IMG/VR virus record: IMGVR_UViG_3300027706_000004
Coordinates: 1-42,153 of that record
Origin: a virus
DNA: 42,153 nucleotides
Reading direction: 5' to 3' (one strand)
A program made the translations under genes and the position numbers. Below the pieces are notes generated by a model. The model saw only the letters and a program-made list of their open reading frames with translations. It had not been told where the DNA came from and made no database searches. Below, piece by piece: positions 9,138-42,153 of the stretch; the stretch's first letter is position 1, and each line of letters opens with the position of its first letter.

Positions 9138-9185
9138 AAAAAAGGGGATTTGTCTCTCTAACATGAGTGGCAAATTCCCTTTTTT
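9138..9185 (+). terminator. Intrinsic terminator between tail-tip and fibre genes
   Basis: An A6-GGGGATTTG arm (9138-9152) pairs with CAAATTCCC-T6 (9171-9185). This gives a 15-bp stem with one G-U pair and an 18-base loop, and the 3' arm ends in six T residues. The A-run also makes it a possible terminator on the minus strand. The next gene starts at 9201 with its own strong ribosome site. This suggests that fibre and lysis genes are reached by antitermination or partial read-through, or have a promoter not seen here. Confidence 0.8.
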
Positions 9186-20646: not shown

Positions 20647-21768
20647 CTAATCATTTGTATGGCTTACGCTAGCTTTGGCAGGGTTTTTGGACGGGGTTTT
20701 ATGTCTCTCTGCCAGTTTTTCTACTGCTTCTCGCAGGGCTTCATCGGGGTGGTAATAGCGCATGGACATATTGAGGCTACTGTGTCCAAGGATTTTACTT
20801 ACATCCGCCAGCGCCACACCGGCTTCAATCATTCTCGTTGCCGCCGTGTGACGCAGATCATGGAACCGTAAATCAGGCACTCCAGCATCGCGGCACGCTC
20901 TTTTGTATCGGTGATAGAGCGCGGCTGCATTGGTGTATTTCTCCCCTCTTGAATGGAGAAATACATAGGGCTGATGGCCGGAGTAGAGCTTTTGTTCAAG
21001 CAAGATGGTTTTAAGCTCTGAGTTGATTGGCACTCTTTTATTCTTCTTTGTCTTTACAAATCCTTTTTCAATAAATATATATCCATTCTCAAAATCTATA
21101 TTCTCCCACTTGAGGCTTACCACCTCGCTTCGTCTTAGTCCTGTATGGAGCACGGTTTGAATTATTGCCCGTAGATAAGGTGGGCATACTGACATGAGCC
21201 TCTTTTCCTCTTCATCTGTGAGTATGCGCTCCATCTGATTGTGCTCTGGCAGAAATTTTACTCTTGAGACGGGATTATCGCCAAAGAATTTTTCCTTCTG
21301 TTTTGCAATGTTATAGAGTGCCTTGAGGCATGTAAGCTCTCGATTGACTGTAGCGGGCGAGTTTAATCGTTTAAGGTGATTGGTTTCATTGAGTCTTTGT
21401 GTTTGATACGCAGAAATATCAGCGGGTGTAATTTCGTTTAATTTCTTTCTGGCAAAGAATCTCAGAAGCTGCTTGAGCGATTCTCTGTCTCTTTCCCATG
21501 CGCGGTTCTTTTTCACATTGCGGACGTACGTTATATATTCCCTTGAGAATTCCTCAAGCGTTGGGATTGTGACCTCTTCTATTCCTAGTTTGCTGAGTTG
21601 TATCTTGCGCCTTATCTCTTCCCACTGAGCCTCTGCCATTCTTTTTGATACTAGATTGCATGGTCCAAGGCTCTTTTTATGCTCACGGCCGCTCTGGGAA
21701 TACCGAACATACCAGTACGCCCTTTTTTGTCCATTCTTGCTCGTAAGGAATCTTTTATAGAGTCCCAT
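20647..21768 (-). CDS. int: Tyrosine recombinase integrase
   Basis: The product is 373 residues with the full domain set: an N-terminal arm-type DNA-binding region (about 1-60), a SAM-like core-binding domain (about 70-165) and the catalytic domain (about 175-340). The catalytic residues are visible: Arg in HTGLRRSEV, Lys in VKTKKNKRVP, HDLRHTAATR with His and Arg, GHSS with the second His, and Tyr in MRYYHPD. It would integrate and excise the phage. It overlaps the upstream membrane zinc-ribbon gene by 14 bases and belongs to the leftward repressor operon, so it would be expressed with the repressor on establishment of lysogeny. Confidence 0.95.
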   Translation of the reverse strand: MGLYKRFLTSKNGQKRAYWYVRYSQSGREHKKSLGPCNLVSKRMAEAQWEEIRRKIQLSKLGIEEVTIPTLEEFSREYITYVRNVKKNRAWERDRESLKQLLRFFARKKLNEITPADISAYQTQRLNETNHLKRLNSPATVNRELTCLKALYNIAKQKEKFFGDNPVSRVKFLPEHNQMERILTDEEEKRLMSVCPPYLRAIIQTVLHTGLRRSEVVSLKWENIDFENGYIFIEKGFVKTKKNKRVPINSELKTILLEQKLYSGHQPYVFLHSRGEKYTNAAALYHRYKRACRDAGVPDLRFHDLRHTAATRMIEAGVALADVSKILGHSSLNMSMRYYHPDEALREAVEKLAERHKTPSKNPAKASVSHTND

Positions 21769-22404: not shown

Positions 22405-22908
22405 TTACGCGCTTTTTTCCATTCCACCCGGCAGGCTTATTTGCTCGATGGTACTTTCTCCTTTTTGAATCTTCTCCAAATACTCATCCACTTTTTTCAT
22501 TCTCTGCGCCCTGGTAAGTGCAACGCCTAGTTCCGATGCCTTTGCATTTACAATCTTTATGAGCTTGGCTCTCATTCCCCAAATGGAGCTTGGGATAAAT
22601 ATGTCTCCTTCATGTCTGCCCAATGCCCATTCTGGAATAAGCCCAAACGTGTGAACTATGAGTTGCACCATGTGAGGTTTTGGAGCGGTATTGCCCTTTT
22701 CCCAGTCCTGTATGTTTCTAAGAGACCTACCTATTACAGCGCCAAAATCCTCTTGAGTGAGATCGAGCTGGGTTCTCAGAGATGAAATAGCTTCAGCCCA
22801 ATCTACCGTCACCTCTTTCTTCTTTTCTACATACCTCTTCTGTCTTTTATGCAAATTTGCAAATAACCCCTTGACAGACACATTTTTGCGTACTATAATT
22901 GAGTTCAT
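22405..22908 (-). CDS. Lysogeny repressor, XRE-family HTH
   Basis: The product is 167 residues from ATG 22908, preferred because AGGA lies six bases upstream; a TTG six bases earlier is possible. A basic extension (residues 1-35) precedes an XRE HTH at about 37-88, with LTQEDFGAVIG and SLRNIQDWEKG as the HTH core. The C-terminal part is helical with no LexA/CI-type autoprotease residues recognised, so induction may not follow RecA cleavage. The gene is read leftwards from the promoter at 22930-22958 and faces a Cro-like gene. The rightward promoter lies within its first codons, which fits repressor control of both directions. Confidence 0.82.
   Translation of the reverse strand: MNSIIVRKNVSVKGLFANLHKRQKRYVEKKKEVTVDWAEAISSLRTQLDLTQEDFGAVIGRSLRNIQDWEKGNTAPKPHMVQLIVHTFGLIPEWALGRHEGDIFIPSSIWGMRAKLIKIVNAKASELGVALTRAQRMKKVDEYLEKIQKGESTIEQISLPGGMEKSA
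22851..22863. promoter_or_regulatory. Palindromic operator candidate GCAAATTTGC plus AAA
   Basis: GCAAATTTGC (22851-22860) is a perfect 10-bp palindrome just upstream of the rightward -35 box at 22871. On the minus strand the 13-base site reads TTTGCAAATTTGC. Nearly the same string, TTTGCAATTTGC, fills the spacer of the late promoter (29592-29603). It may be the site of the repressor or of the HTH-sigma4 protein. It also lies in the repressor coding region, so chance cannot be ruled out. Confidence 0.4.
22871..22899 (+). promoter_or_regulatory. Rightward early promoter (lytic)
   Basis: TTGACA (22871-22876), a 17-base spacer and TATAAT (22894-22899) match the sigma-70 consensus at all 12 positions. 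Transcription would begin near 22906 and drive the Cro-like gene at 22943 and the early operon. It lies inside the 5' codons of the leftward repressor gene. A promoter this strong must be held off by the repressor in the lysogen. Confidence 0.85.
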
Positions 22909-22929
22909 ATTCAATCCTACATGTTACTA

Positions 22930-28080: not shown

Positions 28081-28431
28081 GTGACCGTGATAAGGATTAA
28101 GCGTCTAAAGCCATCTGATGACCCCTGGCACATTCCAATGACAGAACGGGACCTAACCAGACTCATCCTGGACTATCTTAAGTGGATTCCTAACTCTACC
28201 TGGAAGAAAATCAGAGGCTCTATGGGCATGAGAGGGATATTAGACATAATTGGTTGTTGGGAAGGGAAGTATGTAGAGCTAGAGGTTAAGACAGAGAGAG
28301 GTAGGCTAACCCCTGAACAAAAGGCAAGAATCGAGGAAATTAGGCAGGCTGGAGGTATAGCAGAGGTAGTGAAAAGTATTGAGGATGTTCACAAACTCTT
28401 TGGCAAGGATGGTAGGATTGAAATCCTTTGA
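28081..28431 (+). CDS. VRR-NUC family nuclease
   Basis: The product is 116 residues from GTG 28081, preferred because AGGA lies four bases upstream; the frame is open to 28027. It has the PD-(D/E)xK core of VRR-NUC nucleases: Glu22 (TERDL), Asp55 in MRGILDIIG, Glu68-x-Lys70 in ELEVK and Gln80 after GRLTPEQ. Phage members are small stand-alone nucleases, some shown to cut branched DNA, so a role in Holliday junction or replication-fork processing is likely. It follows the replication genes and overlaps the next gene by 23 bases. Confidence 0.85.
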   Translation: MTVIRIKRLKPSDDPWHIPMTERDLTRLILDYLKWIPNSTWKKIRGSMGMRGILDIIGCWEGKYVELEVKTERGRLTPEQKARIEEIRQAGGIAEVVKSIEDVHKLFGKDGRIEIL

Positions 28432-28924
28432 CAAAGTAAATAATCCTTACGAAGCACATGACTTGCTTCGAAATGAAATTATTAAGAGCTATATACGCCG
28501 TGCCCTACGGTATTATTACGAATGGAAAAAAAATGGTGCACTAAAGGGAGAATCCCGACTATATGGCATATATAATATTTATCTTTCTATGCTTTCTGAT
28601 TTCGACTTGATAGAATCGTATCTTTTCGAAATAAAGATAAAAAATAAGGCAGCTTATACTTCGATAAATGGTTATCTACATGCACGCACATATGGTCAAA
28701 TTAAACTCGATAAGATATTTAGAAAATCTCCACTTACTTATGATACCTATAAACAATATATTGACTACTACGTAAACTTATTATTCAATAGTTTAATGAG
28801 GCTCGATAAGCGGGAATGCCCGTTTTGTTCTGTTCAGAAATTAGCGGGAAGACCTCAGCGAGTTCTGCCACAACCACTAACAGGAAAAATTTGTTTCTGG
28901 TGCCAAAGAAGAGTGGAGGCATGA
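28409..28924 (+). CDS. Helical protein with C-terminal zinc knuckle
   Basis: The product is 171 residues from ATG 28409; the exact start is uncertain, as no ideal ribosome site is visible and later TTG codons exist. Residues 15-120 are helical and rich in Tyr (SYIRRALRYYYEWKK, then YDTYKQYIDYYVNLLF). The end carries CPFC and CFWC about 26 residues apart, a zinc site. Its position just before the HTH-sigma4 gene and late promoter leaves open a regulatory role. Zinc sites occur in some Q-type antiterminators, but no such likeness is claimed. Confidence 0.5.
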   Translation: MVGLKSFDKVNNPYEAHDLLRNEIIKSYIRRALRYYYEWKKNGALKGESRLYGIYNIYLSMLSDFDLIESYLFEIKIKNKAAYTSINGYLHARTYGQIKLDKIFRKSPLTYDTYKQYIDYYVNLLFNSLMRLDKRECPFCSVQKLAGRPQRVLPQPLTGKICFWCQRRVEA

Positions 28925-28970: not shown

Positions 28971-29561
28971 TTGATAGAACAAGATAGATTTAAAATCAGT
29001 GCGGTAGTAAGACTTAAGCATGGGCCTTTATTTGAATGGATGAGAGATAATAATTATACGCAGAAAGAATTGGCAAAATTACTGAATGTAAAGCAAACAA
29101 CTGTAGGAGCATGGATTAATCTTCGAACAATACCACGGGAGCCTATTCTAACTGCACTTTGTGACCTTACTGGTATGAGTTGTGAGGAATTATTTCCATC
29201 TGCTTATGTCTTTGCAGTAAGAAAAAAAAAGTTTAGCAATATGCAACAATTATATTTTACAAAAGAATTGCCACTTGCTGATATGCTTGCGTGGTCAAAT
29301 CAAGAGGCTTTACCTAGTGCTGAGAACATTATTATTGACCTGGAAGAAAAGGAGCTACTTAAAGAAGCAATTGACCATGCTCTTTCTGAAAAAGAAAAAG
29401 AGGTGATTAAAAGACGATTTGGTTTCAGTGGGTATGATGAGCACACATTAAATGAGATTGGTAGTCAACTACGTTGTTCTTCTGCATTTGTGGGACAGGT
29501 TGAAGTAAGGGCGCTAAGAAAGATTCGTATGTTTCTAAAGCAAAAAGCGAAATCTAAGTAA
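28971..29561 (+). CDS. Late regulator candidate: XRE HTH fused to sigma-70 region 4-like domain
   Basis: The product is 196 residues from TTG 28971, behind AGGT. Residues 17-75 form an XRE-type HTH (TQKELAKLLNVKQTTVGAW). Residues 131-187 align throughout with sigma-70 region 4: KEVIKRRFGF, HTLNEIGSQL, then QVEVRALRKIR. In E. coli sigma-70 Arg584, Glu585, Arg586 and Arg588 read the -35 box; the aligned residues here are Ser171, Ala172, Phe173 and Gly175, while Gln176 is kept. The fold seems preserved but not its usual DNA reading. The gene ends 19 bases before the late promoter, followed by an attenuator. It may recruit or alter RNA polymerase for late genes. An alternative is a sigma-like activator of another promoter class. 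Confidence 0.72.
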   Translation: MIEQDRFKISAVVRLKHGPLFEWMRDNNYTQKELAKLLNVKQTTVGAWINLRTIPREPILTALCDLTGMSCEELFPSAYVFAVRKKKFSNMQQLYFTKELPLADMLAWSNQEALPSAENIIIDLEEKELLKEAIDHALSEKEKEVIKRRFGFSGYDEHTLNEIGSQLRCSSAFVGQVEVRALRKIRMFLKQKAKSK

Positions 29562-29580
29562 TAAAAGCTCCAATTGCCTA

Positions 29581-29609
29581 TTGACAAACATTTTGCAATT
29601 TGCTATTCT
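29581..29609 (+). promoter_or_regulatory. Late promoter
   Basis: TTGACA (29581-29586), a 17-base spacer and TATTCT (29604-29609) form a strong sigma-70 promoter with a predicted start near 29616. The spacer ends in TTTGCAATTTGC (29592-29603), nearly the same as the switch motif at 22851-22863. In lambda, the Q binding site lies in this same part of pR'. It is placed to drive the terminase, head and tail genes. Confidence 0.8.
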
Positions 29610-29636
29610 TTCACTCGGTTGAACTATCTCAAAATG

Positions 29637-29670
29637 CCGGACAACCCATTTCGGGAAGTCCGGTTTTTTT
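29637..29670 (+). terminator. Intrinsic terminator in the late leader (attenuator)
   Basis: CCGGAC pairs with GTCCGG, and after an AA/AA internal loop CCC pairs with GGG around ATTTC (29637-29663). Seven T residues follow (29664-29670). It lies about 21 bases after the predicted late start and 18 bases before the small terminase start, so it would end a leader RNA of about 55 bases unless it is overridden. Confidence 0.88.
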
Positions 29671-29687
29671 GTTTATGAGGCTTGAAT

Positions 29688-30134
29688 GTGGCTAAAAAAC
29701 CACCCTGGCGACCTACCAAATATACTCCAGAACTTCAAGCAAAATTCGACCGCCTTGTTGATGAATGGGATTTTGAGGGTACTTATACAGACCCGCGAGA
29801 TGGCAAACAAAAACCAAAGACAAATAATTTCTGGCAACTTTGGTATGTTGACCAGCTTATTTATAAACTTGGTCTTGTGCGTGATACGTTCTATCGCTAT
29901 TGTAAATTGCATCCTGCCTTCTCGGATACCAAAAAAAGGTGGGAAACAAAACGCAATTTTGGACTTACAACAGTTGTTCCCTTTTTTGCTAAAAACCCGA
30001 CCATGTGGATTTGGCTTTCTAAGAATTGTCTTAAAATGTCCGAGCATCCCGTTGATGATGATGGTGATCATAGTCTCGATGCTCTTATTCGTGCCCTGGA
30101 ACAAAGTCGGAGGAAACGTGGGGATCAGGGGTAG
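29688..30134 (+). CDS. terS: Terminase small subunit
   Basis: The product is 148 residues from GTG 29688, seven bases after GAGG; TTG 29682 is too close to that site. The N-terminus (KKPPWRPTKYTPELQAKFDRL) is the usual opening of many small terminase proteins. The centre looks like an HTH (QLIYKLGLVRDTFYRYCKLHP) and a helical region follows. It would bind the packaging site and hand DNA to the large subunit. It is the first gene after the late attenuator and precedes the large subunit gene. Confidence 0.8.
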   Translation: MAKKPPWRPTKYTPELQAKFDRLVDEWDFEGTYTDPRDGKQKPKTNNFWQLWYVDQLIYKLGLVRDTFYRYCKLHPAFSDTKKRWETKRNFGLTTVVPFFAKNPTMWIWLSKNCLKMSEHPVDDDGDHSLDALIRALEQSRRKRGDQG

Positions 30135-30165: not shown

Positions 30166-31377
30166 ATGTTTAAGTGGGGACTCTTTTCGCCAAAGGCTTT
30201 AGACTCACTCGACTTATCCACACGCAGAATTAATATTTGGGAAGGCGCAGTCCGGTCATCAAAAACTATCACATCACTTGTGCGTTGGATGGAATTTGTG
30301 AAGACTGCTCCTCAAGGCGATTTTCTCATGGCTGGTAAGACCGAGAGAACGCTTAAAAGAAATATACTCAACCCATTGACCGAGATTGTAGGCAATAAAC
30401 ATTTCCGCTATAACATGGGATTGGGTGAAGCTCGGCTCTTTGGAACACGGATATATATTGTTGGCGCAAATGATGAACGTGCCGAGGGGAAAATTCGAGG
30501 ACTTACCATTGCCGGTGCATATCTTGATGAAATAACACTTATGCCTGAATCATTTTTTGATATGCTGCTATCTAGGCTTTCAGTTGATGGTGCGATGCTT
30601 TTTGGTTCTACAAATACCGACTCGCCGTTTCATTGGTTAAAGACTCAATTCCTAGAAAGGGAAGATTTAGATTTGGCCTCATTCCATTTTGAGCTTGACG
30701 ATAATCTCAATCTCTCCGAGAAATTCAAAGAGAATCTCAAAAAAGAATATACCGGCCTTTGGTATAAGCGGCTTATCGAGGGCTTATGGGTTATGGCACA
30801 AGGGGCAATATATGATATGTTTGATGATGCATTCCACGCTATAGATGTGCCGAAGAAATTAGCTGAATATATTAAAATTTGGTGTGCTGTGGACTATGGA
30901 ACATCCAATCCATGCACGTTCGGGCTTTATGGAAAACACCAAAACGGGAATACATACAAGTTGAGGGAATATTGGTATGATGGTCGGGAATCGGGAAGGC
31001 AAAAGACTGATTCGGAATATGTGAAGGATTTTGTAAAATGGCTTAGAGAGGTCAAGCCTCAAGTTGTTTATCTCGACCCTTCCGCAGCGAGTTTTAAGGC
31101 TGAACTTAGGAAATTAAATTTCAATGTTCAGGATGCAAATAACGATATTCTGGATGGTATTAGATTTATTTCTGGCATGTTAGGGAATGGGAAATATTTT
31201 ATTGATAAATCATGTGAAAACACGCGAAAAGAATATGTGAGTTATGTATGGGACTCGAATGCACAAAGAAAAGGTGAAGACAAGCCACTCAAGCAGAATG
31301 ATCATGCGGTTGATTGTGATAGGTATGGACTTTTTACTGAATATTCCAGGGGAGAAATAAATATCCGATGGCTCTAA
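30166..31377 (+). CDS. terL: Terminase large subunit
   Basis: The product is 403 residues from ATG 30166, with AGGGA five bases upstream; the frame opens far earlier but would overlay the small subunit gene. The ATPase part has Walker A GAVRSSKT (27-34) and Walker B in GAYLDEIT (about 125-132). The nuclease part shows WCAVDYGT, VVYLDPSA and NDHAVDCDRY, giving the acidic residues of an RNase H-like fold. The layout fits PBSX-type terminases, which often use headful packaging (inference). The end overlaps the portal gene by ten bases. Confidence 0.93.
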   Translation: MFKWGLFSPKALDSLDLSTRRINIWEGAVRSSKTITSLVRWMEFVKTAPQGDFLMAGKTERTLKRNILNPLTEIVGNKHFRYNMGLGEARLFGTRIYIVGANDERAEGKIRGLTIAGAYLDEITLMPESFFDMLLSRLSVDGAMLFGSTNTDSPFHWLKTQFLEREDLDLASFHFELDDNLNLSEKFKENLKKEYTGLWYKRLIEGLWVMAQGAIYDMFDDAFHAIDVPKKLAEYIKIWCAVDYGTSNPCTFGLYGKHQNGNTYKLREYWYDGRESGRQKTDSEYVKDFVKWLREVKPQVVYLDPSAASFKAELRKLNFNVQDANNDILDGIRFISGMLGNGKYFIDKSCENTRKEYVSYVWDSNAQRKGEDKPLKQNDHAVDCDRYGLFTEYSRGEINIRWL

Positions 31378-41466: not shown

Positions 41467-42153
41467 CCAGGGATCACTTACTATAAAAATCGTCGTGGAT
41501 ACCGCCGATCTTCAACGCCTTACAGAAGAGGCGCAAAAGACGGGAAAGCAGGTTGAGTTATCTCTTGGTCAATCCCTCAAAAATGCAGGAGAGGAAGCCT
41601 CAAGCTCTACTCAAAAGCTCGGAAGCTCTTTTGAGGGACTTCTTAGCAGCATTCATCCGGCAGCAGTGGCAATCACGGCGGTTGTTGCGGCTGCAACGGC
41701 TTTCGGTGGTGCAATCCTGGGCACTGCGAAGCTTGCGGCAGATTTTGGAGAGTCCCTTCATAATATGTCCATCACATCCGGGGTATCTGTTGAGACGCTA
41801 TCCTCTCTCAAGCTAGCTGCCGAAAAAGCAAATCTCTCAATGGCCGATCTTTCAATCAGTTTCAGATTTCTCAATAGGGCAATTTCAGACGTGGCATCTG
41901 GTGTAAAGAGTGATGCGTCAGAGGCATTGGCAAAGCTTGGCGTATCGGTAAAAGATGCAGGCGGTCATGTAAAAACAATAGAACAGATACTCCCCGATCT
42001 TGTAACAAAGTTCTCCGAGGTCAAGGATGCCTCGACAAGAACCGAGCTTGCAATGAGATTATTTGGAAGAGGTGGCTCCGAGCTTCTCGTTCTTCTTGAT
42101 GATCTTGCAAGTGATGGGTTTGATAATGTCGTGAAGAGGGCAAAAGAACTTGG
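41459..42153 (+). CDS. Tape measure protein, N-terminal part (continues at 3-4043)
   Basis: ATG 41459 follows AAGGGATAC. The opening SLTIKIVVDTADLQRLTEEAQ is typical of tape measure proteins, followed by a hydrophobic segment (residues about 66-90, AAVAITAVVAAATAF) and the LHNMSITSGVSVETLSSLKLAA and LFGRGGSELL parts shared by many phage tape measures. The frame runs through the repeated 127 bases and continues from base 128 of the window. The joined length is 1,536 residues. Confidence 0.93.
   Translation, partial: MPDQGSLTIKIVVDTADLQRLTEEAQKTGKQVELSLGQSLKNAGEEASSSTQKLGSSFEGLLSSIHPAAVAITAVVAAATAFGGAILGTAKLAADFGESLHNMSITSGVSVETLSSLKLAAEKANLSMADLSISFRFLNRAISDVASGVKSDASEALAKLGVSVKDAGGHVKTIEQILPDLVTKFSEVKDASTRTELAMRLFGRGGSELLVLLDDLASDGFDNVVKRAKEL
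42027..42153. repeat. Terminal redundancy, copy 2 (circular contig overlap)
   Basis: This copy is identical to bases 1-127. Base 42153 corresponds to base 127, so the sequence continues at 128 after circularisation. The tape measure frame is the same in both copies. Confidence 0.95.

Follow-up and report, generated by a model that had tools for sequence, protein, structure and literature searches.

Early/late junction of the phage

The window analysed here is the whole of IMG/VR record IMGVR_UViG_3300027706_000004 (42,153 nucleotides, positions 1 to 42,153), which derives from an uncultivated temperate phage with a siphovirus-like gene set. At the junction between its early and late genes lies a gene that joins an XRE helix-turn-helix (HTH) domain to region 4 of a sigma factor. 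This fusion gene is the last of the early operon and is separated from the virion genes by a promoter and an intrinsic terminator, which together form a short leader before the terminase small subunit gene (terS). The features of the junction are as follows.

28971..29561, + strand: XRE-sigma region 4 fusion protein (TTG start, 196 amino acids), from Pfam matches and predicted structure
29043..29192, + strand: XRE HTH domain, residues 25-74 (Pfam HTH_3, PF01381, E = 8e-9)
29265..29528, + strand: homology to the end of sigma region 3.2 and to region 4, residues about 99-186
29581..29609, + strand: late promoter TTGACA-17-TGC-TATTCT, among the two best promoter sites of the phage
29637-29670, + strand: intrinsic terminator of the late leader, a 27-nucleotide hairpin (29637-29663) followed by seven T
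29688..30134, + strand: terS (phrog_309, 3e-4; homologue in L111, the closest relative, 6e-20)

Domains and residues of the fusion protein

Both Pfam matches of the fusion protein exceed the curated cut-offs, HTH_3 scoring 35.8 bits against a cut-off of 23 and Sigma70_r4 (PF04545) matching residues 137-186 with E = 6.1e-14. The NCBIfam sigma models align from about residue 99 (SigK over 99-194), which sets the onset of homology around residue 99-110; the homology takes in the last part of region 3.2, since the alignments show a segment equivalent to the LGDFIED that follows the sigma finger. The phage sigma-70 family phrog_351 matches at 4e-16, and searches of the PDB with the protein return sigma region 4. 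In the AlphaFold model, residues of about 18-78 and 124-195 form helical domains predicted with confidence, and a disordered linker (79-124) joins the two. The fusion of an HTH with a region 4-like domain, put forward in the initial annotation from the DNA alone, is thus confirmed. No region 2 is matched in Pfam or NCBIfam, the N-terminus being XRE instead, and Pfam gives no match to DUF1492. A weak match to phrog_36 (E = 0.046) covers residues 118-192 and corresponds to the C-terminal half of that family; the predicted isoelectric point is 9.06.

In sigma-70, residues R584, E585 and R588 read the -35 element. Alignment places S171, A172 and G175 of the fusion protein at these three positions, and the equivalents of Q589, K593 and R596 are Q176, R180 and R183. 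The core of region 4 is therefore retained with its -35-reading residues replaced, and for this reason the domain probably does not read TTGACA; judging from the alignment, contact with the polymerase is the likelier reason for its retention.

Late promoter and leader terminator

Nineteen bases separate the stop codon of the fusion gene (29561) from TTGACA (29581-29586), which is followed at a spacing of 17 by TATTCT (29604-29609) with an extended -10 TGC. Under a score that gives credit for the TG of an extended -10, this promoter ties with a site at 22871 as the best sigma-70 site on both strands of the 42 kb. Sites of such quality are expected by chance about 0.33 times genome-wide and roughly 3e-4 times in the 76-base gap, so the occurrence of the 29581 promoter in this gap is not attributable to chance; the second top site, 22871, falls exactly where the early rightward promoter is expected. 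The end of the spacer between -35 and -10 is occupied by GCAATTTGC, but dyads are no better than chance.

The terminator consists of CCGGACAACCCATTTCGGGAAGTCCGG and the run of seven T, has a folding free energy (dG) of -15.3 to -17.8, and begins 21 bases past the predicted transcription start (about 29616). It ranks among the strongest of the phage and doubles as the end of the early operon. The terS open reading frame (ORF) spans 29682-30134, with GTG at 29688 as its likeliest start, and its Shine-Dalgarno sequence GAGG (29677-29680) stands 6 bases past the T-run, which leaves no space for a further promoter between terminator and terS. Consequently, all upstream transcripts that enter terS, whether from 22871 or from 29581, cross the terminator. 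The arrangement, in which the final early gene is followed by a strong promoter, a terminator directly behind it and then the late operon, is of the pR'-tR' type, in agreement with the lambda-like layout and the spacings first described for this locus. Attenuation by an RNA switch was considered and rejected, since only about 20 nucleotides precede the hairpin and no sequence competing for its arms was found; an Rfam search of the leader gave no match.

Genome setting

The remaining features that bear on the locus are these.

20647-21768, - strand: integrase
22405..22914, - strand: repressor-like XRE gene, divergently oriented, in the lysogeny module
22871..22899, + strand: early rightward promoter TTGACA-17-TATAAT, heading the operon whose last gene is the fusion gene
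28379-28924: gene of a 181-amino-acid protein with a C-terminal CxxC-x21-CxxC motif, preceding the fusion gene
30166..31377, + strand: terminase large subunit (terL), PBSX family (TIGR01547, 3e-43)

Positions 1-127 recur exactly at 42027-42153, and because the start of the window is thus recopied at its end, the record is that of a complete phage genome, circular (or circularly permuted), with a length of 42,026 bases. Early genes run rightward from 22943 and are followed by terS, terL, portal, capsid, tape measure and lysis genes. Terminase homologues reach 55-59% identity in genomes of one Clostridia-containing phylum, which hints at a host there, and up to 64% in viral contigs. Between late genes at 9142-9183 lies a strong hairpin (dG -23) with flanking T-runs on both strands that resembles a terminator acting in both directions within the late operon.

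Late-regulator slot and leaders in related phages

In terminase or portal relatives, the slot before terS is usually occupied by a RinA/ArpU-type (phrog_36) protein or by another region-4-bearing protein, some of the RinA/ArpU assignments having been made by eye from sequence and position without a profile. Occupants of the second kind include a zinc-ribbon and region 4 protein in L071 (Sigma70_r4, 2e-8), a 204-amino-acid region 4 protein upstream of terS in L072, and region-4-like proteins of 133-148 amino acids upstream of terS in L138 and L160. Moreover, the phage sigma factor of L096 matches the C-terminal half of phrog_36 (1e-5), which indicates a relationship between region 4 and the RinA/ArpU tail. 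Given these occupants, the position is a late-regulator slot, and the fusion protein is a new occupant of it.

Several of these loci carry further combinations of the same parts. The zinc-ribbon and region 4 gene of L071 (3227-3574, - strand) directly precedes terS, with a terminator hairpin and a tRNA-like sequence in the leader. In the terminase relatives L096 (3232-4053) and L125 (4247-4810), phage sigma genes stand just before an ArpU-type late regulator or a small HTH protein and terS. A single 235-amino-acid ORF in L094 (5716-6423), directly before terL, combines a region 4-like part (phrog_1190, 7-111) with a terminase small subunit (phrog_2538, 126-209). The phrog_36 (RinA/ArpU) protein of L106 (3979-4416) has a second match, to phrog_79 ('anti-termination protein Q-like', E = 0.005), which may connect the two families.

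At a threshold of dG -9 or better, a terminator-like hairpin lies between regulator and terS in 16 of 17 loci, where same-locus controls predict 4.4; the window is itself one of the 17, which were partly picked for having a regulator, contain two near-identical staphylococcal leaders, and comprise some long leaders for which the control rate is high. In many of the 17 the hairpin ends 18-60 bases before terS. Among 58 viral contigs not chosen for a regulator, 20 have a hairpin near terS (8.4 expected). The enrichment is seen in leaders from L034-L042, L071, L090-L106 and L111-L190, and in L039, L096, L102, L106, L112, L113 and L115 the hairpin is preceded by TGnTATAAT (or TGCTATACT) without a -35. 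Since hairpin leaders are common in relatives, the promoter-terminator leader is a shared design that is not peculiar to the fusion protein. The phrase 'new type of late-gene switch' in the initial annotation was for this reason too strong, given that such leaders accompany ordinary RinA/ArpU-type regulators; what is distinctive in the window is the fusion itself together with a perfect -35, as opposed to the extended -10 without -35 of the relatives. The excess of terminators suggests that the late operons of RinA/ArpU-type phages may need read-through too, which a model of activation leaves unexplained.

A second XRE-region 4 fusion was not found in about 600 bacterial genomes of two phyla and a few further genomes (searched with the fusion protein itself), in phage and plasmid records, or in viral and genome contigs, where scans with a single protein detect close relatives only; all that these searches returned were plain sigma factors or plain XRE proteins. 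The 80 viral contigs with the nearest terminases held none either, and a region-4 profile run against viral contigs recovered nothing but full sigma factors, SigK-like and others. Two long-looking candidates, L003 and an Acetobacter match, turned out to be ordinary sigma factors.

Model for late-gene control

The fusion protein is probably the late-gene regulator of this phage. How, then, would it act? That it does so by letting polymerase past the leader terminator is plausible and is the reading we tentatively prefer, with control of initiation as its main rival. The 29581 promoter, with its perfect -35 and extended -10, is far better than chance and is taken to be self-sufficient. It would fire unaided and yield only a leader RNA of about 55 nucleotides. 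As the fusion protein accumulates, its XRE domain would bind at the promoter or close to it, and its region-4-like domain would dock on the polymerase in early elongation, most likely on the beta flap normally held by sigma region 4. The polymerase could then cross the terminator and transcribe the late genes, in a manner like that of lambda Q, 21Q or AlpA by a protein outside their families. AlpA binds between -10 and -35, and RNA polymerase then bypasses terminators starting at +26 and +54 (PMC7969949, PMC9371919), where that of the window starts at about +21. The beta flap serves as a dock for lambda Q as well as for sigma region 4 or gp33 (PMC2988020), and loss of the R584, E585 and R588 equivalents suits such docking better than reading of a -35. 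The initial suggestion that the protein poses as a partial sigma fits these lost residues and the precedent of T4 gp33, which mimics sigma region 4 on the beta flap (PMC2988020), from which we infer that it may do so.

Several observations weigh against antitermination. Near the late promoter there is no operator dyad above chance (P 0.49), and the -10-like pause elements past the start, AACTAT (29622) and CAAAAT (29630), have a chance probability of 0.64. Among the Pfam, NCBIfam and PHROG matches listed for the fusion protein none is to a known Q family; equally, as had been supposed, no described antiterminator family appears among them. The ring in the exit channel that defines Q-like action is beyond sequence analysis, and no fused homologue was found among the genomes and contigs searched. 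Leader terminators occur with RinA/ArpU-type regulators too, and a phi13 Ltr, which is required for promoter activity, acts on a promoter fragment that extends no further than +50 (PMC13123087); the presence of a terminator in the leader is therefore, by itself, no proof of antitermination. Of the proposal that the protein replaces Q, the region 4 homology and the layout stand; its role as an antiterminator is not supported by any binding dyad, direct repeat or pause element above chance.

The alternative that survives best, a real possibility though one we rate below antitermination, is that the protein acts as RinA, ArpU or Ltr do, by activating transcription initiation from the late promoter, with the XRE domain bound near the promoter, the region-4-like domain recruiting or stabilising RNA polymerase, and a leaky terminator that only damps read-through from the early operon. 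The requirement of the phi13 promoter for Ltr is in line with this, as are the phrog_36 regulators that hold the same slot in relatives; the weak phrog_36 match of the fusion protein, taken with the L096 sigma match to the same half, makes region 4 seemingly common in such activators. However, the 29581 promoter, whose -35 is perfect and whose -10 is extended, ought to work without an activator, direct repeats of the Ltr kind upstream of it are not above chance, and a strong terminator would still confront the transcripts.

An unlikely alternative is that the protein is a repressor or timing factor whose XRE domain sits over the late or early promoters and whose region-4 piece competes with the host sigma, shutting down early or host transcription. 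Flap-bound T4 gp33 represses basal transcription (PMC2988020), XRE domains are typically repressors, and an operator-like TTGACAAACATTTTGCAA spans the -35 of the late promoter. Its dyad is within chance, however, and a repressor gene placed directly before the virion genes leaves passage of the terminator unexplained. It is more improbable still that antitermination belongs to another factor and that the fusion protein has an unrelated role: the 181-amino-acid protein, encoded next to the fusion gene and with a cysteine spacing that may resemble that of the lambda Q zinc finger, has no family or PDB match and an uninformative AlphaFold model (predicted local distance difference test score 44), and a leader RNA element would have to be one without an Rfam match.

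Should the fusion protein be an antiterminator, phages would have made a Q-like factor from a piece of sigma itself, and a direct link between control of initiation and of elongation could be tested on a single small protein and a leader of 130 bases. A wider extension, which we consider doubtful, concerns the phage late regulators that bear a region 4, meaning the XRE fusion and possibly some of the RinA/ArpU proteins: together they would make up a large class of antiterminators loaded at the promoter, independent of the Q and AlpA families, that would place a sigma-derived domain on the beta flap beside the RNA exit channel and carry polymerase past the terminator often found before terS.

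Comparison with known systems

The locus shares with lambda Q, 21Q, 82Q and AlpA a strong host-sigma promoter, an immediate intrinsic terminator ahead of the late operon, and an HTH for DNA binding. Unlike those proteins, the fusion protein has no sequence match to them, carries XRE and a true region 4 in place of the Q or AlpA folds, and contains no recognised ring segment, with binding and pause elements at chance level. Its likeness to RinA, ArpU and Ltr (phrog_36, phrog_248, DUF1492) lies in its place at the end of the early genes, immediately upstream of the late promoter and terS (as defined in PMC13123087), in a C-terminal HTH related by profile searches to sigma region 4, and in a terminator leader before terS. 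It differs from them in length (196 amino acids against about 130) and in an N-terminal XRE domain in place of their usual N-terminus; moreover, the roughly four imperfect direct repeats upstream of Ltr promoters are absent at 29581, and the perfect -35 sets this promoter apart from those of RinA/ArpU relatives.

T4 gp33, acting with gp55, is likewise a region-4-like module apart from a whole sigma, in which -35 reading has apparently been given up; however, no sequence similarity to sigma is discernible in gp33, which works with a sliding clamp, whereas the region 4 of the fusion protein is truly homologous and is joined to a domain that binds DNA. With the phage sigma-70 factors (phrog_351 and others) the protein shares the end of region 3.2 and region 4, but it lacks region 2 and everything else of region 3 and for that reason cannot open a promoter alone. 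By profile for Q, by size and repeats for Ltr, and by region 2 for sigma, it is thus a member of none of these families, and it seems to be a new component of a late-gene switch whose type is known, that of a phage late-gene regulator encoded beside its promoter.
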